From a bacterium (GTDB lineage Bacteria; Omnitrophota; Gorgyraeia; Zapsychrales; Zapsychraceae), in contig JAUIER010000025.1 of the NCBI GenBank assembly GCA_030429765.1, forward strand, positions 1-42,244: a stretch of DNA of 42,244 nt, given 5' to 3'. Position numbers and translations under genes: made by a program. Numbering within the stretch: position 1 is the stretch's first letter; each line of letters opens with the position of its first letter. The notes under the pieces were generated by a model. It saw only the letters and a program-made list of their open reading frames with translations. It was not told the origin of the DNA and searched no databases. Below, piece after piece: positions 6,790-42,228 of this stretch.

Positions 6790-7479
6790 TTATCGATTAA
6801 TTCCCCTCGGCCGACCACGGCGCTTCTTGATGGGGATCACCCCGTCAAGGTGCTCGGCGAATTGTTGGGAAATATAGTGCCCAATCCCCCGCGTGCTGTT
6901 CTGAATCGGATCAAGAATCTCGTCAGTCAAGCCGGCGTTCACGCGGCGGCGATGTTCTGTTCTCCAGCGATACGGATCGGAGCCGCTTTTAATATATAGG
7001 GGATTTTGTTCCCGATCAATGAGTTTTGGGGCTTTGTCCCGGACATTCAATCGATAGCTCGACCAGGGATAATCATCAGGAGACCGAACCATCCCTGCCC
7101 GCAGCGGATTTTGCTCGATATAGCGCAGGACATTCTCCAGATAAATATCATCGCTGACGATCGGCGAACGAAATCGTCCTTGCCAGATGTGCCCACAGCG
7201 TTGGTACTTATGGTGAAGATGGCGTGTGTGCGACAGCGTAATTTTCTGCATGATCGTACTAATCGACGACGTTTCAGTGACCTGAATCAATAGATGCACG
7301 TGATTGGGCATCAGACAAAAGGCAAAGAGATGAAAGTCGAGTTGGCGTTTGTAGCGGTAGATGATGCCGAGATATCGCCGATAGTCTTCGTCGTCATGAA
7401 AGACAGTTTGCTTATTGTTCCCGCGGTTGATGACGTGGTAAATCAGCCCGGGATGGTGTATTCGAGGTGGTCGAACCAT
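6790..7479 (-). CDS. REP-associated tyrosine transposase (Y1_Tnp)
   Basis: The product is 229 residues, typical for the RAYT subgroup of IS200/IS605-like HUH enzymes. The metal-binding H-x-H is in M-P-N-H-V-H-L-L (His60, His62). The catalytic tyrosine is Tyr120 in R-Y-I-E-Q-N-P. The opening R-P-P-R-I-H-H-P-G-L-I-Y-H-V-I-N-R-G and the segment H-I-W-Q-G-R-F-R are hallmark. Such enzymes nick and join single-stranded DNA at palindromic ends. The C-terminal tail is basic (K-K-R-R-G-R-P-R-G). All key residues are present, so the enzyme may be active on its own ends and on the shorter relative near miaB. Confidence 0.9.
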   Translation of the reverse strand: MVRPPRIHHPGLIYHVINRGNNKQTVFHDDEDYRRYLGIIYRYKRQLDFHLFAFCLMPNHVHLLIQVTETSSISTIMQKITLSHTRHLHHKYQRCGHIWQGRFRSPIVSDDIYLENVLRYIEQNPLRAGMVRSPDDYPWSSYRLNVRDKAPKLIDREQNPLYIKSGSDPYRWRTEHRRRVNAGLTDEILDPIQNSTRGIGHYISQQFAEHLDGVIPIKKRRGRPRGINR

Positions 7480-7552: not shown

Positions 7553-7582
7553 AGCTTTGGGGAGTTCTGACACCAATTTTTT
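7553..7582 (-). repeat. Right inverted end of RAYT element
   Basis: This is the mirror copy of 6745-6774 with one mismatch. Its terminal T-run (A-run on the minus strand) supplies two bases of the TAA stop of the cupin gene at 7581-7583. Confidence 0.85.
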
Positions 7583-7946
7583 ATCGCTGGCCTTCGTAGT
7601 CGTCCTGGAGGCGTTCGATGTCGTCTTCGGAGAGGTTGTCGCCGCAGGCGACTTCGATGAATACGAGGCTTTTATCGCCGGTGTTGGCGATGCGGTGGAC
7701 GGCGCCGACGGGCACATCAATAATCGATCCCGGACCGACCTGGATTTCTTCGTCGCCCACTTGAACCAGTCCTTCACCGGTCACGATGTTCCATTTCTCC
7801 GACCGATGATGATGTCGCTGCAGGCTCAGGCGTCCGCCGGGCTTGACCTCCACCCGTTTGACCCACACGCCTTCCTCTTCCAGAAATTTGATGTAGTGAC
7901 CCCAGGGCCGCTCGCTGTAGTTGATCTTGATATCCATTGTCTGCAT
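7581..7946 (-). CDS. Cupin, mannose-6-phosphate isomerase type II-like
   Basis: The product is 121 residues and forms a single cupin barrel. It begins with the R-P-W-G-H-Y signature typical of the C-terminal domain of bifunctional mannose-1-phosphate guanylyltransferase / mannose-6-phosphate isomerase. Metal-ligand candidates are the H-H-H-R-S-E-K-W cluster and the later P-V-G-A-V-H-R segment. Stand-alone cupins of this type may isomerise sugar phosphates, but this is unproved here. The nearby glycosyltransferases fit nucleotide-sugar supply. The stop codon is formed with the tip of the RAYT element; the pre-insertion stop was probably TGA after the same last residue. A TATAAT box lies only 8 bases before the ATG. 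Confidence 0.8.
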   Translation of the reverse strand: MQTMDIKINYSERPWGHYIKFLEEEGVWVKRVEVKPGGRLSLQRHHHRSEKWNIVTGEGLVQVGDEEIQVGPGSIIDVPVGAVHRIANTGDKSLVFIEVACGDNLSEDDIERLQDDYEGQR

Positions 7947-8015: not shown

Positions 8016-8876
8016 CTAGCTGTTGACGTAGTCTAAAAAAGTGTATTCACCGGGACGGTTGACCTTTTTCCACTGCAGGTAACTCTCCCGGATGCGTTTG
8101 ATGTAGTAACCCATCCCGTGATCCGAGATCCCGCCGGGAAATTCGTGCTTGAGTTCGCCGAATCGGTCCTGCGCTCGCGCTGTCGAACTGATCGACTTGG
8201 ATAAAAATTTTCGCCACCAGCGGATCTCATGATGGATCATCCCGAAGGCGTCAAAAAAACGCACGCGTCCGATATGCCAGTAACCCAATTTGCGCGGCGG
8301 CACACGGGTGACGATGTCTTCGTCATTGACAAACCGATACGTCCGGTGTCGAAAACGTTCGTTAAACGCCCGGTGGAATTTTTTATCGCCCACGCGCGGC
8401 TGGCCGAAGGTGTACAGACCGCTGACATCCCATTCGTCGAGCAGCCGGTCGACGGCGAGGGTGGCCAGCGCGCCTCCCAGACTGTGCCCGGTCAGCCAAA
8501 TGGTCCGCCGCCCATTGTCGTATTTATAGATGAGATCGCGGATGTCGTTCCAGACATAGTCCAGTCCTTCCTTGAATCCCTGATGCACCTTGCCGCGTTT
8601 GGTCATCAACAGACGGGTCTTTAAGTCTGTCAGCCAGTCTTCAATGGATTCCGTCCCGCGAAACGCGATCAGGATGATTTCATCATTGACCGCGGCGAAG
8701 ATCTCGATATTGCGCCGTTCAAAGAATTCACAGTCGGTGAAACCCCATTTGTTGATCACCACTTCGTGGATCTCCTGATGGGTCTTGTAGGTCAGCTCGG
8801 CCGCGTAGGCCAATTGCAGGGCGTTGAGCAGATTAAAACGGGTGGTTTTCGCGTCAAATTCAAATTTTGTCGACAT
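8016..8876 (-). CDS. Class 3 lipase (alpha/beta hydrolase)
   Basis: The product is 286 residues with no signal peptide. The nucleophile elbow is G-H-S-L-G-G with Ser132. The acid is probably Asp187 in N-D-E-D-I-V-T-R-V-P-P, and the base probably His253 in D-H-G-M-G-Y-Y. The oxyanion region is A-F-R-G-T-E-S near residue 71. This layout fits Lipase_3 (PF01764), which hydrolyses acylglycerols or other esters. The absence of a signal peptide suggests cytoplasmic action or non-Sec export. It is 12 bases from the GT4 gene upstream and probably co-transcribed with it. Confidence 0.85.
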   Translation of the reverse strand: MSTKFEFDAKTTRFNLLNALQLAYAAELTYKTHQEIHEVVINKWGFTDCEFFERRNIEIFAAVNDEIILIAFRGTESIEDWLTDLKTRLLMTKRGKVHQGFKEGLDYVWNDIRDLIYKYDNGRRTIWLTGHSLGGALATLAVDRLLDEWDVSGLYTFGQPRVGDKKFHRAFNERFRHRTYRFVNDEDIVTRVPPRKLGYWHIGRVRFFDAFGMIHHEIRWWRKFLSKSISSTARAQDRFGELKHEFPGGISDHGMGYYIKRIRESYLQWKKVNRPGEYTFLDYVNS

Positions 8877-10071: not shown

Positions 10072-10749
10072 TTATCCGGGGAGGTTGATGAACTTGTCTT
10101 TGAGGATGCGCCGCGTGCGCCGGGCGATATCGACCCGGTCCATCCGCTCGCCAAAGCTCTTGAGCGATTCAATCGTGTCCATGTCTTCTTTGGTCGGGAG
10201 GATCGTCAAGCTGAGTCCCAATCGGCGGATGTTGGCCACGGATGTGTCAAATACAGTTTCGGTTCCCCACTCCACCCCCTCAAAAATGGCCGGATGTGAT
10301 TGCTGAAGTCCGATCAGATAGTAGCCGCCATCGGTGGATGGCCCCAGACAGCATTGCGCGGTTGTCAGCGTCTCAAGGGCGTCGGCGAGATCCTGCCGGC
10401 TGATCTCGATGCAATCGGTGCCGATAATAACCGCCCGTTTATAACCTTGGGCGGCGACCTCGCTAAAGGCGTGATGCATCCGATCGCCGAGGGTCTGGCC
10501 TTGTTGCGCCCGAATGGTGAGGCGATCTGCAAATTGATTCAGGAACGGCACCTCATCCCGGTCATGGGCGTAGTACAAAAACTTGTCGGCAGGCTCGACC
10601 GCTGTCACCTGCTCCAGGACATCCTCGATAAAGGTCTTATACAGATCGGTGACAAACACCGCCTGCAGTGATTTGAGCATGCGGGTCTTAACGCGGCCCT
10701 GTTGAGGTTCGCGGGCGAAGACGATGATCGCTTGTTGCGGCGAGTTCAT
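10072..10749 (-). CDS. TIGR04282-type (DUF2064) glycosyltransferase
   Basis: The start is ATG 10749, with GAGGAAA 6 bases upstream; the longer frame merely overlaps the neighbour. The product is 225 residues. It shows the family signature F-A-R-E-P-x-x-G-R-V-K-T-R-M near the N-terminus, then G-T-D-C-I-E-I and G-P-S-T-D-G-G-Y-Y-L-I-G. This is the DUF2064 nucleotidyl/glycosyltransferase-like family, named in NCBI as TIGR04282 arsenosugar biosynthesis glycosyltransferase. It overlaps the TIGR04283-type gene by 62 bases, and the ArsM-type gene is next upstream, which supports an organoarsenical role. Confidence 0.85.
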   Translation of the reverse strand: MNSPQQAIIVFAREPQQGRVKTRMLKSLQAVFVTDLYKTFIEDVLEQVTAVEPADKFLYYAHDRDEVPFLNQFADRLTIRAQQGQTLGDRMHHAFSEVAAQGYKRAVIIGTDCIEISRQDLADALETLTTAQCCLGPSTDGGYYLIGLQQSHPAIFEGVEWGTETVFDTSVANIRRLGLSLTILPTKEDMDTIESLKSFGERMDRVDIARRTRRILKDKFINLPG

Positions 10750-11413
10750 AGGTTTCCTCGGATGGATGTTTGAAAAATTCCAGGCCGGTCCACAATTGCA
10801 GATAGGCCAATGTGTATTGTCCGAATGTCCTGGCAAATCCTTGTTCGTGCCATTTGCGGGATGACACCCGGATGGGATGATCGAGGACATCGACACGATG
10901 ACGCGCGCGGACCCGTTTCGAAAAGACGATGTCGTCCATGATCGGCAGATCATCATATCCGTCAAGCGCGTCAAAAACCGAACGGCGGATAAAAAAGCCC
11001 AGATCTCCGTCGACAATCTTCAACCGTCGCGCCCGGATGTTGACACACCATTCGTAGAAACGAAAGATCGGCTGACGGTCTTCGATAGCCAGCCGGAAAC
11101 AACCGGCGTCAGCGCCCCGGCGCATCGCGTCCATGGCCCGGCGAACGCCCTTCGGGTCAATGAACGAATCCACATGTAGAAATAATAAAAAATTGTTTTG
11201 TGTGATGTCAGCCCCGCTGTTCTTTTGACGGGCCCGTCCGCGCCGGGTTTCGAGCACATCCCCGTATCGGCCGGCCAACTCCACGGTATGGTCCTGACTG
11301 CCGCCGTCAACAAACAGCAAATGGCCGCAGCGGCTCAGCCGCCGGTAGTAGTCGGCATGGGTCTCGAGAATGGCCGATTCATTGAGCACCGGGATGATGA
11401 TGTCCAGATCCAT
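10688..11413 (-). CDS. TIGR04283-type GT2 glycosyltransferase
   Basis: The product is 241 residues with a GT-A fold. Key segments are I-I-I-P-V-L-N-E-S, V-D-G-G-S-Q-D, G-R-A-R-Q-K-N-S-G-A, L-F-L-H-V-D-S and G-D-L-G-F-F-I-R-R, ending with P-I-M-D-D-I-V-F. This order matches the family NCBI calls TIGR04283 arsenosugar biosynthesis glycosyltransferase (formerly rSAM/selenodomain-associated transferase 2). The metal-binding D-x-D position is taken by H-V-D. The TAA of the ArsM-type gene directly precedes this ATG, so translation is coupled. Its C-terminus overlaps the DUF2064 gene. Confidence 0.85.
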   Translation of the reverse strand: MDLDIIIPVLNESAILETHADYYRRLSRCGHLLFVDGGSQDHTVELAGRYGDVLETRRGRARQKNSGADITQNNFLLFLHVDSFIDPKGVRRAMDAMRRGADAGCFRLAIEDRQPIFRFYEWCVNIRARRLKIVDGDLGFFIRRSVFDALDGYDDLPIMDDIVFSKRVRARHRVDVLDHPIRVSSRKWHEQGFARTFGQYTLAYLQLWTGLEFFKHPSEETYELAATSDHRLRPRTSTGPR

Positions 11414-12466
11414 TTAGCAGCAACCGCCCGCCGGTTTTTCATCGGAATTGATGATCGGGCTTTCACCGCAGCCGGCAAACAGCCCGTAATGGGTCGATGT
11501 GTCACCACTAATGGTAAAGTGTCGGGCCAGCCGGGTGTCCTGCAGCATGCTCGCCGTGTTGGAACACACGAGCATCGGCCGATTGGTCTCAAACACATGA
11601 TGATTGTCGAGAATAAATTGATGCGGGCTTTCGCTGATCGTTCCCTGGTAGGTGGCAATCTGTCCATAGTCTTCGCAGGCGGTTTCCAGTTGCGGGAGTT
11701 TAAAGAGTCGATACGTTATCGAATTAAAATGCGCGAAGCCGATCTTGTCGATGGTTTCCTGGTCGAGGAGATCGATCTTGGAACAGGCAAAGATGCGCGG
11801 ATCGATAAATCCGACCTGGTTGGCCAAACGCTCAAAGTCCTTCCAGTACAGCGCGCCGCCCAGGCATTCGCCCAGCAGGATCGGATCCTCTTTGGCCCAG
11901 TCCGGCAGACGCCGATCGGCGTAGACATCCGAGAAGAAAAACTCTCCGCCCTCTTTGAGGACCCGATGCACTTCGGACATCACCGCGGGTTTGTCCGGAG
12001 ACAGATTGACCACACAATTCGAGATCACAATATCAAAATAATTGTCCGGCAGGTCCAGCTCCTGCAGATTTTCGATGTATCCCTTGATGAAGCGGACATT
12101 GGGTTTTTTATAGCCGAATTTTTCCATCTGCGCGGGCAGGTATTTGTTGCCGATCTCCAATTGTTCATCGGTCATATCGATCCCCACCACTTCACCTGAT
12201 TCACCCACAAAGTACGACAGCACAAAGCAGTCACGGCCGGTGCCGCAGCCCAAGTCGAGGATCTTCATGCCGTCGAGTACCAGCGGAAACGGCGCGCCGC
12301 AGCCATAAAATTTGGTCTGGATCTCGTCTTCGATGAGTTTGAGCGGTTCTTTGACGTAGGCGGGCAGTTTGTCCAGGGCGCAACAGGCGCTGGTCTTCAG
12401 ATCTTTTTTGGTCTGCAGAACCTTGCCGTAATAGTCACTGACTTTCTGATGGGTGAGCGAGCTCAT
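11414..12466 (-). CDS. arsM: ArsM-type arsenite S-adenosylmethionine methyltransferase
   Basis: The start is ATG 12466 with AAGGAGA upstream, giving 350 residues. The SAM site is D-L-G-C-G-T-G-R-D (71-79). Cysteines match the arsenic-binding pattern of ArsM: Cys28/Cys29 in S-A-C-C-A, Cys56 in F-Y-G-C-G-A-P-F-P, Cys151 in S-N-C-V-V-N-L and Cys201 in G-E-C-L-G-G-A-L-Y-W. The product also ends in G-G-C-C, which might add a thiol site. The reaction would be methylation of As(III) in the cytosol. Adjacent TIGR04282/04283 glycosyltransferases suggest feeding into arsenosugar or arsenolipid synthesis rather than only detoxification. The radical SAM enzyme ArsS is not in the window. Confidence 0.85.
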   Translation of the reverse strand: MSSLTHQKVSDYYGKVLQTKKDLKTSACCALDKLPAYVKEPLKLIEDEIQTKFYGCGAPFPLVLDGMKILDLGCGTGRDCFVLSYFVGESGEVVGIDMTDEQLEIGNKYLPAQMEKFGYKKPNVRFIKGYIENLQELDLPDNYFDIVISNCVVNLSPDKPAVMSEVHRVLKEGGEFFFSDVYADRRLPDWAKEDPILLGECLGGALYWKDFERLANQVGFIDPRIFACSKIDLLDQETIDKIGFAHFNSITYRLFKLPQLETACEDYGQIATYQGTISESPHQFILDNHHVFETNRPMLVCSNTASMLQDTRLARHFTISGDTSTHYGLFAGCGESPIINSDEKPAGGCC

Positions 12467-12572
12467 AAATACTCTCCTTGCATTTGGAATGTTGGGTTCA
12501 TCAACCGCGACCACACCCGCGCGTCTTTAAACCGTTATCGATCTGTAGCCTATAACATATGCTCTATTCTAA

Positions 12573-14129
12573 TTATTCATCTGAGCGTGTCAAATATTTT
12601 GGGCGCAACAGCGTTTCCAGCGCGAGTAACACGAAAAATGGTAAATAAATGATCCAGCTCAACGTCGGGATCTTCAGGGTTTCCATATCAACAATCGGAT
12701 GAATGGATTGAAAGTTCAGATAACTCAGGATCAGCGTGCCGGATAAGAGCAGCCATGAGCGATATGGAAAAAAGCATAAAAACGGGATACACCAGCAGAA
12801 ATACCATGGATCGCCCACTGGATTGATGATGAACAAGGCGCTAAGCGCCAGAAAACAGCGATGCAGCAGATCGGTCTCGCCGCGGTCTTTGAGCAGCATC
12901 AGATAGATCATGAAGAGTCCCAGTAATCCGGCGGCCACCATCTTCGCCGGGATCAGGGTTTGGGTCCAGTCGGCATTGATCCATTCCATCACACGGTAGA
13001 TCACCGCGAATATGCTCGCATTGTACGCCCACTCCTCATTGTACGTATTCAGTCCCTGAAAGATCTCCTGCAACGTCGTATCATTCCAGAACAAGAATGG
13101 AACATACAGCAGTAAACACGTGGCTACGAACGCGGGCACCGGCCGCCAACGGGTCATCCGGATAAATAGCGGTAACAGAACGCCGGAGAAAAACTTGCTG
13201 AGCGTGGCCAGGCCCAGCGTGATATGCGCGCCGACCCAGCGCTTTTGAAACAGCAAAACCAGGCTGAGCATCGTAAAAAATACCGGAATCGGATCATAGT
13301 GTCCGGAATTCGGAAACTCCTTCATCACCAGCGGCGACCACGCGTAGATGATCACCATCGCGGGATTGCGCCGGAAGTTTTTCAACAGCGCGATCAGCAG
13401 CAGGATCACGCCGACGTCAAACCACATAAAGATAAACTTCATCCAGCGGAACGAATCACCGCCGGTCACACTGCTCAACCAGAATACGGCCTGTGCGACA
13501 GGCGGATAGATCGTCGGCACCTGCCAATGGCCGATGCGTTCATAGAGTGTCAGATGTTCATCCCTCAGGTCGGTCAATAACTCCAGCCGCGCGCGGTCGC
13601 TGGTATTGAAATCGCGGTAGGTGATGCGAACCCGATTGACGGCATCGTAATAATCTTCGGTGTAGCCGTATTGATACATGTACAAATCGGCCGGCGCGTA
13701 TTTAAACGGATTGATCCCGTGTTTGATTGACTTTCCGTCCCACAAATAGCGGTAAAAGTCATTCTCATGCACGGGTTCCGACGGCAGCAGGATCAATCGA
13801 AACACGACCGCAAAGGCCACAATCGCAGTCAGTGATTTGGTGTCGTTCTTGGACTTTTCAATCAACCGGATGCCAACGGCGTACAGCGCAAACGCGAAAC
13901 CAAACAGCCACAAAAAAATCACGGTCGGCATCTCATTGTTCTCCACCGGATAATAAAACCCGTTGGCCATCTTGAACACGGTTTCGGTGAAGCGTTCACC
14001 CGTCGCCATATCAATTAACTGACACCATAGTCGAGGAAGTCCGCGTGAGATCGCGGTGACGGCTGACCAGATCAATGTCAGCATGATCCCGAGAACGACG
14101 ATAATTTTGGGGCGGGATGTTTGGCTCAT
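12573..14129 (-). CDS. GT-C membrane glycosyltransferase (GT87/DUF2029-like)
   Basis: The start is ATG 14129 (M-S-Q-T-S), because further upstream the frame overlaps the GT2 gene in another phase. The product is 518 residues with about ten or more transmembrane helices. The first periplasmic loop carries H-E-N-D-F-Y-R-Y-L-W-D-G followed by G-I-N-P-F, the acidic signature of GT-C enzymes that use polyprenyl-phosphate sugars. Later loops show I-Y-P-P-V-A-Q and N-S-G-H-Y-D-P. It follows the GT2 polyprenyl-phosphate sugar synthase-like gene by 28 bases, so the two probably form a donor-and-transfer pair. A 106-base gap separates it from arsM. Confidence 0.8.
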   Translation of the reverse strand: MSQTSRPKIIVVLGIMLTLIWSAVTAISRGLPRLWCQLIDMATGERFTETVFKMANGFYYPVENNEMPTVIFLWLFGFAFALYAVGIRLIEKSKNDTKSLTAIVAFAVVFRLILLPSEPVHENDFYRYLWDGKSIKHGINPFKYAPADLYMYQYGYTEDYYDAVNRVRITYRDFNTSDRARLELLTDLRDEHLTLYERIGHWQVPTIYPPVAQAVFWLSSVTGGDSFRWMKFIFMWFDVGVILLLIALLKNFRRNPAMVIIYAWSPLVMKEFPNSGHYDPIPVFFTMLSLVLLFQKRWVGAHITLGLATLSKFFSGVLLPLFIRMTRWRPVPAFVATCLLLYVPFLFWNDTTLQEIFQGLNTYNEEWAYNASIFAVIYRVMEWINADWTQTLIPAKMVAAGLLGLFMIYLMLLKDRGETDLLHRCFLALSALFIINPVGDPWYFCWCIPFLCFFPYRSWLLLSGTLILSYLNFQSIHPIVDMETLKIPTLSWIIYLPFFVLLALETLLRPKYLTRSDE

Positions 14130-14157
14130 GAATGGTTGAGTCGACGTGTAGACGGCC

Positions 14158-14898
14158 TCATACGCGCACCTTGGGGTAGTCGACCGGTGACGGCGCTGAT
14201 CGCCGTAGAAATTTGTATTTGAATATCGTCGCCAGGATTTTATAGCCGGCCCGTATAGTTCCGCTGACCGTTCCGGAAATCTTGGAGCGGCCGATCCGCC
14301 GGCGGTAGTCCACGGGGATCTCGGTGATGCGCAAATTATGCTCAACGGCCCGGATCTGCATTTCGATGGTCCATCCGAAATTGGTATCGGTCATCCCCAG
14401 GCGATGCAGGGCGTCCGCGCGGATCGCGCGAAACGGTCCGAGGTCTGAATATGTGACGCCCCAGAAAAGCTTCATCAAAAAACAGGCCAGTTTGTTGCCA
14501 AAAAAGGCCTGCGGGGTCATCGCCCCCTGCTCGCGTTGTCCCAGCGCGCGCGAGCCGATCACAAAATCAAAATTACCCGACGCGATCGGCTGGATCAATT
14601 GCGGCAGCTGTTCACCGTGATCACTATGGTCACCGTCAATAAAGACAACGATATCGGTGTCCGGGCTTAACGCGTGGATACCGGCGAGACAGGCCTGACC
14701 ATACCCGCGGCGCGGTTCATTGATCACCCGGCAGCCTAATTGTTCGGCCACCGCGGCAGATTGGTCGGTCGACGCGTTGTTGACGACGATAGCTTCCCGG
14801 ACGATATCGTCGGGAAGATCGGCGATCACCTTGGGCAGCGATTGCTCTTCGTTGTAGACCGGAATGATGACGCTGATCAATGGTTTGGATTTTGACAT
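14158..14898 (-). CDS. GT2 polyprenyl-phosphate sugar synthase-like
   Basis: The start is ATG 14898 with AGGAA upstream, giving 246 residues. It has S-V-I-I-P-V-Y-N-E-E, V-V-N-N-A-S-T-D-Q-S, R-R-G-Y-G-Q-A-C and the metal-binding D-G-D (88-90). A segment like S-D-L-G-P-F-R-A-I-R and the P-V-D-Y-R-R-R-I-G-R-S-K-I-S-G-T end motif are characteristic of DPM1-type and undecaprenyl-phosphate glucose/mannose synthases. No C-terminal membrane helices follow. It probably charges a lipid carrier used by the adjacent GT-C enzyme at the inner membrane. Confidence 0.85.
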   Translation of the reverse strand: MSKSKPLISVIIPVYNEEQSLPKVIADLPDDIVREAIVVNNASTDQSAAVAEQLGCRVINEPRRGYGQACLAGIHALSPDTDIVVFIDGDHSDHGEQLPQLIQPIASGNFDFVIGSRALGQREQGAMTPQAFFGNKLACFLMKLFWGVTYSDLGPFRAIRADALHRLGMTDTNFGWTIEMQIRAVEHNLRITEIPVDYRRRIGRSKISGTVSGTIRAGYKILATIFKYKFLRRSAPSPVDYPKVRV

Positions 14899-14986: not shown

Positions 14987-15382
14987 CTATCGGTACAGCT
15001 CGTCCTTGATCAGGTTTAATATCTGTTCGGAATATTCTTCATTCCCGAAGTTGCCGACGCGGATGGTGACCTTGCTGGCCCGTTCGGTCAGCGCGCTGAT
15101 ATTGATGCGGATGGTTCGTCCCGCCATATCTTCGGCGTGGATCTTGGCATAGGCCGGGAATGATTCCGCACTGACCACATAGGCGTCCATGGTCTCCATT
15201 GCGCGGATCGCCGCCTGATAGATGTATTCGGTTTGCTGGTCGAGATTTTTCGTGAGCGCGCCGGTGGCATACGCGTATCCGGCCCCTCCCACGGCGGCCC
15301 CGGCCAGAAGGACGCAGCCCTGTGATGTGAAAACGGTTAGCGCGAGTGTGATGCCGAGTAATGGTCTGGAAAATGAATTCAT
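14987..15382 (-). CDS. DUF3568 lipoprotein
   Basis: The product is 131 residues. The signal peptide ends in T-S-Q-G-C at residue 23, a lipobox-like site, followed by the glycine/alanine run G-A-A-V-G-G-A-G-Y-A-Y typical of DUF3568. The remainder predicts a small alpha/beta domain (Y-I-Y-Q-A-A-I-R-A-M and R-T-I-R-I-N-I). Function is unknown. The ATG overlaps the TGA of hemL as ATGA, so it is translated with the tetrapyrrole genes; whether it has any role in that pathway is not shown. Confidence 0.8.
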   Translation of the reverse strand: MNSFSRPLLGITLALTVFTSQGCVLLAGAAVGGAGYAYATGALTKNLDQQTEYIYQAAIRAMETMDAYVVSAESFPAYAKIHAEDMAGRTIRINISALTERASKVTIRVGNFGNEEYSEQILNLIKDELYR

Positions 15383-16713
15383 GATTGTGTCCTTTCCTTC
15401 GAATTGATCGATTGAGATCCCCCCGATTTAAAGAATGTCTTGAGCGCGTGCGAGAGCTGCCGGAGATGTTTGCGTGTATGCAGTGTGCTGACAAAAAAGG
15501 CCTCTAGGTCCGCCGGCGGAAAATAGATGCCGTTGTCAAGCAGGTGATGGAACAGCCGGGCGTATTGTTCATGTCCCTGGGCGTCCTGGGCGTCGGCATA
15601 GTTTCGGACCGGTTCACGCCGGAAACGTAGGCTCATCATCGAGAAGTAATGCGACATATGCGCGTCGATACCGTTGGAATCAAAAAAGCCGTTGATGTCG
15701 TCGATAAACGCATCGCAGCGTGTGTTGAGTTTGGTGTACATGTCATCGTTCAAGGCCCGAAGCGCCGCGTAGCCGCTGGCCATGACGACAGGATTTCCGG
15801 AAAATGTCCCGGCCTGGTACACTCCTCCCATCGGCGCCAAACAGGCCATGATATCCGCCCGTCCGCCGTACGCGCCGATCGGAAACCCGCCGCCAATAAT
15901 CTTGCCCAGACATGTCATGTCGGGAATGATGCCGTAGTCGGCCTGAACCCCGCCGAATGACGGACGGAATCCGGTCATGATCTCGTCAAAGATCAGCACG
16001 ATTCCATGATCGTGGGTGAGTTTGCGTAACGCGGTCAAAAATTCCGAGGTGGCCGGGATGACGCCCATATTGCCGGCCACCGGCTCGATGATCACCGCCG
16101 CGATGTTGTCTTTGTGCTGAGCGATGGTTTGTTCCAGCGTTTGAATGTCATTATACGGCAAACTCAAGGTGTTTTTGACATGTTCCTGCGGAATTCCGTC
16201 ACTCGATGATTGCTGCAGCGCCGCGACCCCTGATCCGGCCTGGGTCAATAGATCATCCACATGGCCGTGATAACAGCCGTCAAACTTGATAACCATCGGA
16301 CGTTTGGTGAATCCGCGCGCCAGACGCAGCGCGCTCATGGTGGCCTCGGTTCCCGAGTTGACAAAACGGATGCGTTCGATCGACGGGACTTTGTCCACAA
16401 TCAGCTGCGCGATCTTGACCTCATGCCGGGTGGTGGCGCCGAAGCTGACGCCGCGCTCCACGGTCTTCTTGGCGGCCAGGGTGACATTGCGGTGCGCGTG
16501 TCCGAGGATCGATGCCCCCCACGACAGGCAATAGTCGGTGTACTCATTGTTGTCCTGATCAACGAGTTGTGTGCGGTTGGCGGATTTCATGACCAGCGGA
16601 TTGCCCCCCACGCCTTTAAAGCAGCGCACCGGGCTATTGACCCCTCCCACCATCAGTTCACGGGCCTGTTCAAAAATCTGTTCGGAATTTTTTCGTATCT
16701 GTTGTTTAACCAT
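15379..16713 (-). CDS. hemL: Glutamate-1-semialdehyde 2,1-aminomutase
   Basis: The product is 444 residues, close to the usual 425-430. It converts glutamate-1-semialdehyde to 5-aminolevulinate in the C5 pathway. The PLP-binding lysine is Lys271 in C-L-G-K-I-I-G-G-G, and F-D-E-I (242-245) supplies the pyridine-N aspartate. The N-terminus has G-G-V-N-S-P-V-R, and S-G-T-E-A-T (120-125) is conserved. Its ATG overlaps the end of the HemC-CobA-HemD gene by 8 bases. The C-terminus overlaps the DUF3568 gene by ATGA. The C-terminal tail after L-K-T-F-F is slightly longer than usual. Confidence 0.95.
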   Translation of the reverse strand: MVKQQIRKNSEQIFEQARELMVGGVNSPVRCFKGVGGNPLVMKSANRTQLVDQDNNEYTDYCLSWGASILGHAHRNVTLAAKKTVERGVSFGATTRHEVKIAQLIVDKVPSIERIRFVNSGTEATMSALRLARGFTKRPMVIKFDGCYHGHVDDLLTQAGSGVAALQQSSSDGIPQEHVKNTLSLPYNDIQTLEQTIAQHKDNIAAVIIEPVAGNMGVIPATSEFLTALRKLTHDHGIVLIFDEIMTGFRPSFGGVQADYGIIPDMTCLGKIIGGGFPIGAYGGRADIMACLAPMGGVYQAGTFSGNPVVMASGYAALRALNDDMYTKLNTRCDAFIDDINGFFDSNGIDAHMSHYFSMMSLRFRREPVRNYADAQDAQGHEQYARLFHHLLDNGIYFPPADLEAFFVSTLHTRKHLRQLSHALKTFFKSGGSQSINSKERTQS

Positions 16714-18742
16714 GGATGATCACTTGACTTTTGTATCCCGCTTCGGTGAGGGCTTTTTGCGTGACCGGCCCCTTGCAGAGAATGTCCCACTGCGGCGGAA
16801 TGGATTGATAGTTATGAAGAAAATTTTTGACCGTCGACGGGCTGGTGAAGACGATCTGATCAATGTGCTCCTTGGGCAATTCCTTGACCGGGGGGCATTC
16901 ATTTTTATAAACGATCATCTCATCAACGGCGCAATTGAGCTTGGCCAGCTGTTCTTTGAGAAACGGATTCGGCAGATTGGAGCGTGGAAACAGCACGCGC
17001 TTGCCGTCGAGTTCATATTCGGTGCTGAGTAATGCGTAGACGCCTTCACTTGTTTCGGTCTGCGCGATGTGACGCGGTGTCAGTCCAAAGCGCATTAGCG
17101 CGTCGGCGGTGTCTTTGCCGATGACCACAATATCTTTTTGCTGTAATTGGGCGTAGGCCTCGGGATGTTGCTGTATTGGTCCGGCAAAATGCTCAACGGC
17201 GAAACGGCTGGTCAGCAGGATGATGTCGTATTTGTTCATTAAGGCGGCGCTGGATTCTACCGGAAACGACACGCCGCTGATCCGGATCATCGGCCAATGG
17301 ATCACCCGCCCCAGCGGTTGATACTTGGCCGGATTGGTCCCCGTGTAGAGCAATGTAGGTTTGGGTTGAGGACCGGGCCGGTAAAATTTAACGGTGTCCC
17401 CGACGATGATCAGCGCCGGCGGGGATAATTTATCCAGGTCGGGATGCTTGAGGATCGTTCCGACGGTGGCCGTAATCGCCCGCTCATTGACCCGTGTGCC
17501 GTTGGAGACAATCGCCATGGGCGTGGTCGGTGTGCGTCCGCTTTGCAGCAGCGCCTCAACAATGTGACTGAGCTTGGACAGTCCCATAAAAAACACGACG
17601 GTGTCCGTGTCCGGGATGCGAATGGATTTGGGTTGTGTGCCTTCCAGTTCCTCGGCCTGATGCGCGCTGACAAACGCTACTGATGAGGCGTAATGACGCG
17701 CGGTTAGCGGGATACCCATTTGGGATGAGATCGCCGTGGCCGAGCTCACGCCCGCGATGACGTCGACATGAAAGTGATAATTGCGCAGATATTCGATCTC
17801 ATCTCCGCCGCGACCGAAGACCAGGGGATCACCGCCTTTGAGGCGCACCACGTACTTGCCTTCCATCGCCTTGTGCCGGATCAGCCGTGACAATTCACTT
17901 TGTCGCATGGCGTGATCGCCTTTGCGTTTGCCCACATAGATTTTTTCGGCCTGCGGCGCGTGTTCCAGAATGGATTTATGGACGAGATAGTCGTACAGCA
18001 CGCAATCGGCTTTGTGCAGGGCCTTGACGCCCTTGAGTGTGATCAGATCCGGATCGCCCGGTCCGGCCCCGACAAGGGTGACGGATCCGTATGTCGTTCG
18101 GATATCGATCGGTTCAAAAAGTTTCCGCAGATGTTCATCCTGCGTACGTCCGACAACGGCGAGTTGACCTTGCAAAGGCGTGGATTCCCACGGCAGGATC
18201 TCACGGATGTGTTGTTCCAGTCCCAGCCGTTTGAGCGCGACGGTTGCAATGACCACACCGTCAACAGTGCCGGCCTCGACCTGCCGGATGCGGTCTTCAA
18301 TGGTCCCGCGGATGCTCACGGTTTGGACCCGGGGATTTAACTCTTTAATTTGCTGTTGGCGCAGCGGACTGCTGGTCCCCACCAGATGTTCTTCGGTCAT
18401 CAGCGACAGGCTGTGCTTGCCGACAAAGGCCTCGGTCTCGTCGAGACTCTTGGTCAGGGCAAAAATGGATAGGCCCGGTGCGAGGGTCCGCGGCAGGTCC
18501 TTGGCGCTGTGGATGGTGATGTCGACCTCACCGTTCAGCAGGGCCTGGTCTAATGTGTCGGTAAAAAAATCATCGCCGGCATTGGCGGTCAGTGGGGTGA
18601 CCTGATCTTTGTCGCCGCGCGACTGATAGGTTTTAAGCGTGTACGGGCATTCGATGTTGTGCCGGGCCAGCAGCGCTTCAATCTCTTTGACTTGTAGGGT
18701 GGCCAGACGCGATGATCTGGATCCGAATAGGATTGTCTTCAT
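16706..18742 (-). CDS. HemC-CobA-HemD trifunctional fusion with shortened HemC
   Basis: The 678-residue product contains three tetrapyrrole enzymes in order. Residues 1-215 are porphobilinogen deaminase-like, with G-S-R-S-S-R-L-A, I-H-S-A-K-D-L-P (catalytic Asp82), G-T-S-S-P-L-R and R-G-T-I-E-D-R. Residues 219-455 are a uroporphyrinogen III C-methyltransferase, with V-G-A-G-P-G-D-P-D, V-R-L-K-G-G-D-P-L-V-F-G-R-G-G and A-G-V-S-S-A-T-A-I. Residues 460-678 are a uroporphyrinogen III synthase-like domain. The HemC part stops after P-L-Q-G-Q-L-A-V-V-G-R. It lacks the third domain and the cysteine that holds the dipyrromethane cofactor; Cys32 is its only cysteine. Together the parts would lead to precorrin-2 for sirohaem, cobalamin or alternative haem routes. 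Confidence 0.9.
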   Translation of the reverse strand: MKTILFGSRSSRLATLQVKEIEALLARHNIECPYTLKTYQSRGDKDQVTPLTANAGDDFFTDTLDQALLNGEVDITIHSAKDLPRTLAPGLSIFALTKSLDETEAFVGKHSLSLMTEEHLVGTSSPLRQQQIKELNPRVQTVSIRGTIEDRIRQVEAGTVDGVVIATVALKRLGLEQHIREILPWESTPLQGQLAVVGRTQDEHLRKLFEPIDIRTTYGSVTLVGAGPGDPDLITLKGVKALHKADCVLYDYLVHKSILEHAPQAEKIYVGKRKGDHAMRQSELSRLIRHKAMEGKYVVRLKGGDPLVFGRGGDEIEYLRNYHFHVDVIAGVSSATAISSQMGIPLTARHYASSVAFVSAHQAEELEGTQPKSIRIPDTDTVVFFMGLSKLSHIVEALLQSGRTPTTPMAIVSNGTRVNERAITATVGTILKHPDLDKLSPPALIIVGDTVKFYRPGPQPKPTLLYTGTNPAKYQPLGRVIHWPMIRISGVSFPVESSAALMNKYDIILLTSRFAVEHFAGPIQQHPEAYAQLQQKDIVVIGKDTADALMRFGLTPRHIAQTETSEGVYALLSTEYELDGKRVLFPRSNLPNPFLKEQLAKLNCAVDEMIVYKNECPPVKELPKEHIDQIVFTSPSTVKNFLHNYQSIPPQWDILCKGPVTQKALTEAGYKSQVIIHG

Positions 18743-32756: not shown

Positions 32757-34079
32757 TTATCCGGGGAGCGTTCTTTTTTTGCTTCTGAACCTTTTGCGAA
32801 AAAGTTCACGCCGGCGTTTCGTGTAATCTATCGCATACAATTCTACCAGAAGGCGACGAAAATTTTCCTCGAGCTCCGATACGGTCATTCTATCAGGAAT
32901 GAAATTGACGTCAAATAACGTACATTTTGACCAATCTGTTGGATCTATCAGTCGATTGGCTTGAAGGAGCCTGTCATACAGAGGTGTCCCTGGAAACGGA
33001 GTTTGAACGGTAATTTGTACGTCCGTTAGCTGGCTTTGTTTGACAAAAGTAAGTACGTCACTAAAATTCGACTGGTCGGTCCCATCCAAGCCGAGAATAA
33101 AGCAGCCATTAACAGAGATACCGTAGCTTTGAATCTTGCTAATGGCACGATAGTACCGGTCCAATTGACGGGCCTTCCAATTGGTATTCAGCTCGAGATT
33201 TTCCAGACCGGAACGGCTGGAATTTTCAAATCCAATGAGGACCTGTACGCAGCCACTGTCTCGCAACAAACCCAATAATTCGTCATCATCGGCCAGTGAT
33301 ATATCAGTTTCCGTAAACCATTTGGTATTTTGTCCCATAAATACGTGAGCCAGTTGTTTGCCATATGTTTTGTCTACAAATGTATTGTCGTCCACAAGCT
33401 CAATAAAGGGTTTTTTCCAAAGAGACTTGATACAGGCGAGCTCCTTTTTGACCAATTCCACGGGTTTGGTTTTGTATTTGGGAGATATACTAATCGACGA
33501 AGCGCAAAATTCACACCGCCATGGACACCCTCGTTGAGTCTGTATTGTCAACCGGTCATAGTCCGCCACATTTAATAAGTCGTATCGCGGAATGGGGCTT
33601 TTTGAAAGATCATAGCTTTGGTCACGCCCGTCATAAATTGGTTCCAACGTATTGTGCTGGGCATCCGCCATGATCTGTGACCAATAGATTTCTCCTTCGC
33701 CAAGTACGATACAGTCCGCATGTTGAGCGGCCTCCTCCGGGAGCGCTGTCACATGTAAGCCTCCCAGGATAACCTTAGTATGGCGGGCCCGATAGTGATC
33801 GGCCAGCCTGTAGACTTCTTGAATTTTTGCTGTCGGACTGGAAATCGCGATGATATCCAAGTCGTCCGGTAGATCTTTGTAATCGTCAAACGAATCGATT
33901 TCATGGTAGGACATGCGGATATTCGCAGGTGTTAATGCGGCCAGAGTTAACAGTCCCAAGTTGGGCAGTGAGGCAATGGTCTGAGCACGGTGCATAAACC
34001 CAGGCAAAGTCTTGACGACATCCACAAGTTGTGGATCGCAAATGTGAACGCCGCTCATCGAAATCAACCCGAGTTTCAT
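32757..34079 (-). CDS. B12-binding-type radical SAM protein
   Basis: The product is 440 residues. The N-terminal 150 residues form a Rossmann-like B12-binding domain (I-I-A-I-S-S-P-T-A and L-G-G-L-H-V-T-A-L-P-E-E then V-L-G-E-G-E). The radical SAM cluster is C-P-W-R-C-E-F-C (Cys185, Cys189, Cys192). The C-terminal segment has Q-T-P-F-P-G-T-P-L-Y. This is the class B type related to HpnJ/HpnP and many methyltransferases or ring-forming enzymes. The substrate is not evident. The adjacent membrane protein upstream might be a partner. It lies about 150 bases before the sugar phosphorylase unit. Confidence 0.85.
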   Translation of the reverse strand: MKLGLISMSGVHICDPQLVDVVKTLPGFMHRAQTIASLPNLGLLTLAALTPANIRMSYHEIDSFDDYKDLPDDLDIIAISSPTAKIQEVYRLADHYRARHTKVILGGLHVTALPEEAAQHADCIVLGEGEIYWSQIMADAQHNTLEPIYDGRDQSYDLSKSPIPRYDLLNVADYDRLTIQTQRGCPWRCEFCASSISISPKYKTKPVELVKKELACIKSLWKKPFIELVDDNTFVDKTYGKQLAHVFMGQNTKWFTETDISLADDDELLGLLRDSGCVQVLIGFENSSRSGLENLELNTNWKARQLDRYYRAISKIQSYGISVNGCFILGLDGTDQSNFSDVLTFVKQSQLTDVQITVQTPFPGTPLYDRLLQANRLIDPTDWSKCTLFDVNFIPDRMTVSELEENFRRLLVELYAIDYTKRRRELFRKRFRSKKRTLPG

Positions 34080-41206: not shown

Positions 41207-41241
41207 CAATCTGATAGAATATTAGATCAAAGGAGTTGCCA

Positions 41242-42228
41242 ATGGCCAAGTATCAAAGATTATCAGTCGAAGAGCGAGAAGAAATCAGCCGATTTTTAGC
41301 TCAAAATTTAAGCATCCGGAACATATCAGTCCGACTATCTCGCTCGCCAGCTACCATTAGCCGTGAGATAAGAAGATCTTGTACACATCGTAAATTTTAC
41401 CGGGCCATACCTGCTGAAAAATACGCTTTTCAAAATAGACACAAAACATCTTTAAACCGAAAACTTGATACTAACATGAAACTACGCGAATTTGTTTTTG
41501 ATCATCTCATTAAGAAGCAATGGTCTCCTCAACAGGTTGCCAATCGCCTTAAAATTCTGTATCCTAAGGATATGTCCATGCAAATTTCCCATGAATCCAT
41601 TTACAGCTATATTTACGTTTACCCCAGAACGTTACTTAAAAAAGAGATCATTGCCAATCTTAAACTGCATCATAACAATCGGAAACCTCGGAAAGCCCGT
41701 CAGAAAAGCGGCCCTATTCAAGATTATTTAAGCATTGAAGAGCGTCCTGCCGAAGTGGCTGATCGTATAATTCCGGGCCACTGGGAGGGTGATCTTGTTA
41801 TGGGATCAAATAATAAATCCTGTATCGGTTCGCTAGTTGAACGAACCACCCGCTTTACTCTTCTGGTCAAACTTAAAAGTCGTGACGCTACTGTTGTTCG
41901 TAAAGCTTTTGCCAGAGAGTTTAAGAAAATACCCAAAGAACTAAAAAAATCATTAACCTATGATCAAGGCTCCGAAATGGCTGAACATAAAATATTCTCT
42001 AAAGAATCCGATATTACTGTTTATTTCGCGCATCCCTATTCACCTTGGGAACGAGGTACTAATGAAAATACCAATTCTATTATTCGCAGATTCTTTCCAA
42101 GCCATACCGACTTCTCTAACGTCTCTGAAGCTAAACTGAAACATATTCAAAATCTAATTAATGATAGACCTCGGAAAATTCATGGTTACTACACCCCTGC
42201 TGAAGTTTTTAATAAAATGTTGCACTAG
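41242..42228 (+). CDS. IS30-family transposase
   Basis: The start is ATG 41242, which has AAAGGAG 6 bases upstream; an in-frame TTG lies 6 bases earlier. The product is 328 residues. The N-terminal helix-turn-helix is I-S-V-R-L-S-R-S-P-A-T-I-S-R-E-I-R-R. The DDE residues are in G-H-W-E-G-D-L-V, T-Y-D-Q-G-S-E-M and W-E-R-G-T-N-E-N-T-N. The gene is intact, so the element may be active. The TAG stop lies inside the right terminal repeat. AT-rich codon use sets it apart from most neighbours, and it is the only supported plus-strand gene in the window. Confidence 0.95.
   Translation: MAKYQRLSVEEREEISRFLAQNLSIRNISVRLSRSPATISREIRRSCTHRKFYRAIPAEKYAFQNRHKTSLNRKLDTNMKLREFVFDHLIKKQWSPQQVANRLKILYPKDMSMQISHESIYSYIYVYPRTLLKKEIIANLKLHHNNRKPRKARQKSGPIQDYLSIEERPAEVADRIIPGHWEGDLVMGSNNKSCIGSLVERTTRFTLLVKLKSRDATVVRKAFAREFKKIPKELKKSLTYDQGSEMAEHKIFSKESDITVYFAHPYSPWERGTNENTNSIIRRFFPSHTDFSNVSEAKLKHIQNLINDRPRKIHGYYTPAEVFNKMLH

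Follow-up and report, generated by a model that had tools for sequence, protein, structure and literature searches.

Arsenic methyltransferases of the ArsM family are found in several kinds of gene cluster. In arsenosugar clusters, such as the ArsM and ArsS genes of Synechocystis or the cluster of the Omnitrophota genome G072, ArsM is accompanied by ArsS, which attaches an adenosyl group to arsenic when arsenosugars are made (PMC12159101). In the arsinothricin cluster arsQML, ArsM adjoins genes for a larger organoarsenical, with an ArsL-type radical S-adenosylmethionine (SAM) enzyme and ArsQ (PMC8552651), and in Acr3-linked clusters ArsM serves detoxification. Separate systems pair a polyprenyl- or dolichyl-phosphate hexose synthase (an AglJ- or DPMS-like GT2) with a GT-C type membrane glycosyltransferase of the GT87 or MptB kind. 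Here, we analyse a stretch of 42,244 nucleotides (the window) from a bacterium of the phylum Omnitrophota (contig JAUIER010000025.1 of GenBank assembly GCA_030429765.1), in which a GT2, a GT-C, ArsM and members of the TIGR04283 and TIGR04282 families, whose arsenosugar labels are annotations and not assays, form one gene group lacking ArsS. In its draft assembly (G000; 3.3 Mb, 95% complete) the window makes up contig C2; all genomes compared are drafts, functions are predicted from sequence and family cut-offs are those of NCBI. The reading that we favour, at roughly even confidence, is that of a remodelled former arsenosugar cluster that lost ArsS, in which ArsM would methylate arsenite and the glycosyl genes would carry out polyprenyl-phosphate-dependent glycosylation.

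The five genes all lie on the minus strand (Table 1). An intact ArsM, TIGR04283 and TIGR04282 are contiguous and tightly packed, directly downstream of the GT2 and GT-C, with the ArsM stop abutting the TIGR04283 start (TAA-ATG) and the TIGR04282 start lying inside the TIGR04283 frame, an overlap of ~60 bases. This agrees with an earlier reading made from the letters alone (the sequence-only reading), which had described a contiguous, coupled group with the GT2 and GT-C directly upstream; its assignment to the TIGR04282 and TIGR04283 types also holds, with both proteins over their cut-offs, TIGR04283 barely. ArsS was searched for with TIGR04167 (cut-off 300 bits), which in the G000 assembly gives only weak radical SAM matches, the best at 35 bits. 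No gene exceeds the cut-off in any of the four genomes that carry the same ArsM (clade A: G000, G001, G018 and G019), of which three are 93-95% complete and G001 75%. The ArsM flanks are assembled on both sides in clade A, and in none of the four does ArsS lie beside ArsM. The identical search scores ~400 bits or more in most ArsS-bearing relatives, and the chance that incompleteness produced all four misses jointly is ~4e-5, if the misses are independent. The sequence-only reading had noted that ArsS is missing from the window and had proposed looking for it elsewhere in the genome. Its absence in fact extends to the whole assembly and to the three closest ArsM carriers, which is the first of two observations that the reading had named as telling against its own interpretation.

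Across the phylum, this ArsM type is present in 21 of 384 Omnitrophota genomes, and 15 of the 21 also have ArsS, usually fused to or near ArsM. In most carriers the two form a single open frame of ~650-750 amino acids (examples in Table 1); we found no use of the name ArsSM for this fusion in the literature searched. The six carriers without ArsS are clade A, G271 and G246, the last with a partial ArsM only. The G030 fusion looks broken into two frames within its ArsM part (L067:16555-18686), and a Thermodesulfovibrio ArsS (L091) has one in-frame TGA, consistent with selenoprotein forms of the family. As ArsS is absent, no known path to arsenosugar is left in G000. Two other radical SAM genes were considered. 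A 409-amino-acid radical-SAM/SPASM-like protein without a Pfam match overlaps the TIGR04282 start in G018 only (L076:3278-4507) and was rejected as an ArsS replacement, having no counterpart in G000, G019 or G001, and a B12-binding radical SAM gene of the window (32757-34079) was set aside, being ~18 kb distant and without a match in the loci compared. A limited search found no ArsS substitute common to clade A.

The gene trees tie the locus to a genuine arsenosugar cluster. The ArsM tree recovers clade A as monophyletic (99/99) and as sister to the ArsS-ArsM fusion of G072 (100/99), whose cluster holds a VTT-domain gene, a MerA-like reductase, ArsS-ArsM, TIGR04282 and TIGR04283 together; the exact sister is less certain than this support suggests, because G072 sits on a long branch and the deeper forks do not resolve. 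The clade A copies of TIGR04283 are monophyletic (100/100), and in the TIGR04282 and TIGR04283 trees clade A falls close to G072 and G020, in an order that is moderately supported. The trees place each of the three arsenosugar-type genes with its counterpart from an arsenosugar cluster, and since the ArsS-less clade is nested as sister to a fusion, ArsS was most likely lost. Loss from a G072-like cluster would be the simplest history, and one in which every other lineage gained ArsS would be less simple. When 32 genomes of the family are compared, 10/10 with this ArsM type or ArsS have TIGR04282 vs 2/22 others (Fisher p = 1e-6, with related genomes treated as independent). G020 was rejected as a further case of TIGR04282 and TIGR04283 without ArsS, its contig being 5.9 kb long and the genome 79% complete. 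Compared with the arsenosugar clusters, the window locus shares an ArsM of the same clade and TIGR04283 and TIGR04282 genes near those of G072, and a DUF547 gene lies beside ArsM in G018 and G019, but ArsS, the VTT-domain gene and the MerA-like reductase are missing from it and a GT2, a GT4 and a cupin have been added.

ArsM itself very likely retains its arsenic function, as judged from sequence conservation. It is of the algal (Chlamydomonas) kind, with its best structure matches to the Chlamydomonas (5evj, 373 bits) and Cyanidioschyzon enzymes. It carries the SAM motif, a C-terminal Cys-Cys and arsenic-site cysteines C28, C56, C151 and C201 (numbered from the ATG at 12466), which align with those of CrArsM and CmArsM, as the sequence-only reading had noted; in CmArsM the four defining positions are 44, 72, 174 and 224 (PMC5552862). 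The score against NF038099 (AsSugarArsM), 104.7 bits against a curated cut-off of 400, does not discriminate, because the ArsS-fused ArsM proteins of G011 and G072 also reach just 112 and 108 bits. Between genera, ArsM is 78-81% identical, compared with 67-68% for the GT2, 66-67% for hemL, 50-56% for TIGR04283, 45-49% for the GT-C, 36-41% for TIGR04282 and 33-40% for the GT4. It is the most or nearly the most conserved of the genes compared, with only the small cupin similar (70-78%), and being more conserved than its neighbours it is under strong selection; saturation of synonymous sites precluded use of the ratio of nonsynonymous to synonymous substitution (dN/dS). By analogy with the characterised enzyme, it would convert arsenite to mono- and dimethylarsenicals. 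The locus shares an As(III) methyltransferase with Acr3-linked detoxification, but the ArsM type differs and none of the four clade A genomes yielded an Acr3 arsenite exporter; in G002, G020 and G030, Acr3 lies near a short ArsM of the other type (~35-38% identical).

The two upstream genes resemble a lipid-carrier glycosylation pair. The GT2 matches the dolichol-phosphate mannose synthase 5mlz (E 8.5e-12) and conserves the FxDGDxSDH motif, its AglJ score being below the equivalog cut-off; a family-wide search (E 1e-25) finds strong orthologs only in G000, G016, G018 and G019, those of the last three being 66-71% identical. The GT-C has ~9 hydrophobic segments and an acidic motif in its first large loop, as expected of a polyprenyl-phosphate-sugar-dependent GT-C; this motif, E-[NT]-D-x-[YF]-RY-x-WDG, is conserved (ENDFYRY-WDG). 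In common with hexose synthase and GT-C pairs, the GT2 matches AglJ and DPMS profiles and the GT-C has a GT87 domain and the acidic loop motif, but the window proteins score below the curated AglJ and MptB cut-offs and are linked to ArsM. For TIGR04282, the sole solved relative is 3cgx, annotated just as a putative nucleotide-diphospho-sugar transferase.

A related GT-C also stands inside the ArsS clusters of G025, G028 and G255, where the order is DUF547, GT-C, TIGR04283, TIGR04282, ArsM, PHO4 transporter, ArsS. The window GT-C is 44-50% identical to those of G018 and G019 and ~30% to those of G025 and G028. In G255 the GT-C and a TIGR04283-like protein are one in-frame fusion of 706 amino acids within the ArsS cluster (L114:4775-6895), whose second half scores 155 bits against TIGR04283, below the cut-off of 182. 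This placement and the fusion support a shared GT-C/TIGR04283 pathway where ArsS is present, and it is reasonable to predict a lipid-carrier step in the arsenosugar pathway of the ArsS-bearing family members. The PHO4-family phosphate transporter recurs between ArsM and ArsS (L065:10432-11586, L063:4349-5503, L064:14661-15815 and L114:1907-3061), and could possibly be an arsenate or arsenical transporter. A second TIGR04283 gene of G000 (C14, L073) is not near arsenic genes; its neighbours are a GH26-type gene and one for a lipase maturation factor.

Relatives at the same locus show which genes travel together. TIGR04283 directly adjoins ArsM in each of the four clade A genomes, and in G000 and G019 TIGR04282 follows. 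A DUF547 gene lies between the GT-C and ArsM in G018 and G019, and none at the window locus. G001 has ArsM, TIGR04283 and TIGR04282, and neither a GT2 nor a GT-C stands between its DUF3568 and ArsM genes. The same locus of G016 (95% complete; no ArsM match and no ArsS over cut-off) has hemL, the GT2, TIGR04282 and the cupin side by side, with no GT-C and no TIGR04283. In the tree, the G016 copy of TIGR04282 falls with clade A (99/96), and as ArsM is missing there, this TIGR04282 would belong with the GT2 and cupin and not with arsenic genes.

Table 1 Features of the locus in the window and examples of fused ArsS-ArsM frames in relatives
Feature	Coordinates	Strand	Basis and conservation
hemL, upstream anchor of the locus	15379..16713	-	Syntenic and 67-68% identical in G018, G019; contig-edge fragment in G001; also in G016
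DUF3568 protein, upstream flank	14987..15382	-	PF12092 83 bits; syntenic in G001, G018, G019
GT2, AglJ/dolichyl-phosphate-hexose-synthase-like, probable polyprenyl-phosphate sugar synthase	14158..14898	-	TIGR04182 134 bits (cut-off 325); NF041391 81 bits
GT-C type membrane glycosyltransferase (GT87), 518 amino acids	12573..14129	-	Pfam GT87 36 bits; NCBIfam MptB weak, 20 bits, below cut-off
ArsM, predicted As(III) SAM methyltransferase, 350 amino acids	11414..12466	-	phmmer: 5evj CrArsM 373 bits, CmArsM 318 bits
TIGR04283-family GT2 glycosyltransferase	10688..11413	-	183.7 bits, cut-off 182 (marginal)
TIGR04282-family (DUF2064) CofC-like nucleotidyl/glycosyltransferase	10072..10749	-	191.9 bits, cut-off 134; Pfam DUF2064 115 bits
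GT4 glycosyltransferase, downstream of TIGR04282	8889..9956	-	Pfam Glycos_transf_1; syntenic orthologs after TIGR04282 in G018, G019 (41% and 34%)
Class 3 lipase, between GT4 and cupin	8016-8876		Not seen at the corresponding place in G018, G019
Cupin, mannose-6-phosphate isomerase C-terminal type	7581..7946	-	PF01050 102 bits; syntenic in G016, G018, G019; 72-81% identical in G018/G019
ArsS-ArsM fused frames in relatives (among others)	L104:4016-6025, L066:7354-9441, L110:9239-11338, L112:9051-11267, L113:8989-11043		

Promoter and terminator scans gave little beyond the level of shuffled sequence. Elsewhere in the window, a 678-amino-acid frame (16706-18742) looks, from its sequence, like a porphobilinogen deaminase fused to a uroporphyrinogen methyltransferase and synthase, and two genes look transposase-like by eye, one of REP-associated type (6790-7479) and one IS30-like at the window end (41236-42228).

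The favoured reading assembles these observations as follows. TIGR04283 and TIGR04282 would derive from a cluster of the G072 kind, with ArsS-ArsM, TIGR04282 and TIGR04283. Once ArsS was lost, the glycosyl genes would have come to work with the GT2, GT-C, GT4 and cupin as a membrane glycosylation module beside ArsM. The GT2 would load a hexose onto polyprenyl phosphate, the GT-C would transfer that sugar to an acceptor at the membrane and TIGR04282 may supply an activated sugar; the product would be an arsenic-free sugar. Several points weigh against this reading. G016 possibly lost ArsM recently, in which case the module was perhaps arsenic-related until lately. In addition, a DUF547 ortholog (54-55%) survives on contig C23 of G000, adjoining a MerA-like reductase that shares 56% identity with its counterparts in ArsS clusters, and the survival of such accessory genes is unexpected if the pathway was simply abandoned. 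Finally, an AlphaFold model of the GT-C (three sequences) has too low a confidence to be used (mean predicted local distance difference test score, pLDDT, 43; predicted template modelling score, pTM, 0.32).

These accessory genes also speak for the strongest competitor, in which an arsenosugar-like or lipid-linked organoarsenical is still made independently of ArsS, another enzyme encoded elsewhere in the genome forming the carbon-arsenic bond to the sugar precursor and the GT2, GT-C, TIGR04283 and TIGR04282 finishing a membrane-bound product. It would fit the retention of the gene group across genera and the GT-C genes of the ArsS clusters, including the fusion, and other radical SAM enzymes that form such bonds exist, such as ArsL (PMC8552651). 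We nevertheless regard it as rather unlikely: the limited search found no candidate enzyme common to clade A, the radical-SAM-like gene being confined to G018, the GT2 and GT-C are missing from the G001 locus, and G016 keeps the GT2 and TIGR04282 without ArsM. The arsinothricin cluster offers a parallel, in that ArsM there adjoins genes for a larger organoarsenical, but its ArsL-type radical SAM enzyme and ArsQ are not seen at the window locus, where glycosyl genes stand in their place. A more specific version, in which ArsM products pass to a membrane-bound organoarsenical through polyprenyl-phosphate-dependent GT2 and GT-C enzymes, with the GT-C step shared with the ArsS clusters, seems to us unlikely. 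The proposal of membrane-associated organoarsenical or arsenolipid synthesis in the sequence-only reading survives in part. A link of the GT-C to arsenosugar genes is seen in ArsS clusters, but with no arsS in clade A and with GT2, TIGR04282 and cupin kept without ArsM in G016, synthesis of arsenosugar or arsenolipid by the known route in G000 is predicted to be unlikely, and arsenolipid synthesis there by some other route is an unsupported possibility.

ArsM and the glycosyl genes could also be mere neighbours, an arsenic detoxification gene that sits among surface-glycan genes and shares no function with them, now or earlier. Glycosyltransferases are numerous in these genomes, and each part occurs alone, the glycan genes without ArsM in G016 and ArsM without the GT2 and GT-C at the G001 locus. 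Against this stand the ArsM-TIGR04283 adjacency throughout clade A, the three gene trees, which all point to a relative like G072 that holds the complete arsenosugar set, and the strong co-occurrence of TIGR04282 with ArsM and ArsS, which make chance neighbourhood distinctly unlikely. That gaps in the assemblies or sequence divergence simply hid ArsS, and that an ordinary arsenosugar pathway operates, is barely credible despite the draft state of all genomes and the low completeness of G001, given its joint absence from four genomes, the assembled flanks where most relatives carry it and the sensitivity of the identical search.

To our knowledge, the glycosyl steps that follow ArsS on the way to arsenosugars and arsenolipids are uncharacterised. 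The GT-C genes of the ArsS clusters, one of them (in G255) fused to TIGR04283, provide concrete candidates for these steps. The ArsS-less clade, for its part, is a natural loss experiment, and suggests that TIGR04282 and TIGR04283 can persist without ArsS, TIGR04282 in G016 also without ArsM. Hence, the database label of these families alone is insufficient to infer arsenosugars.

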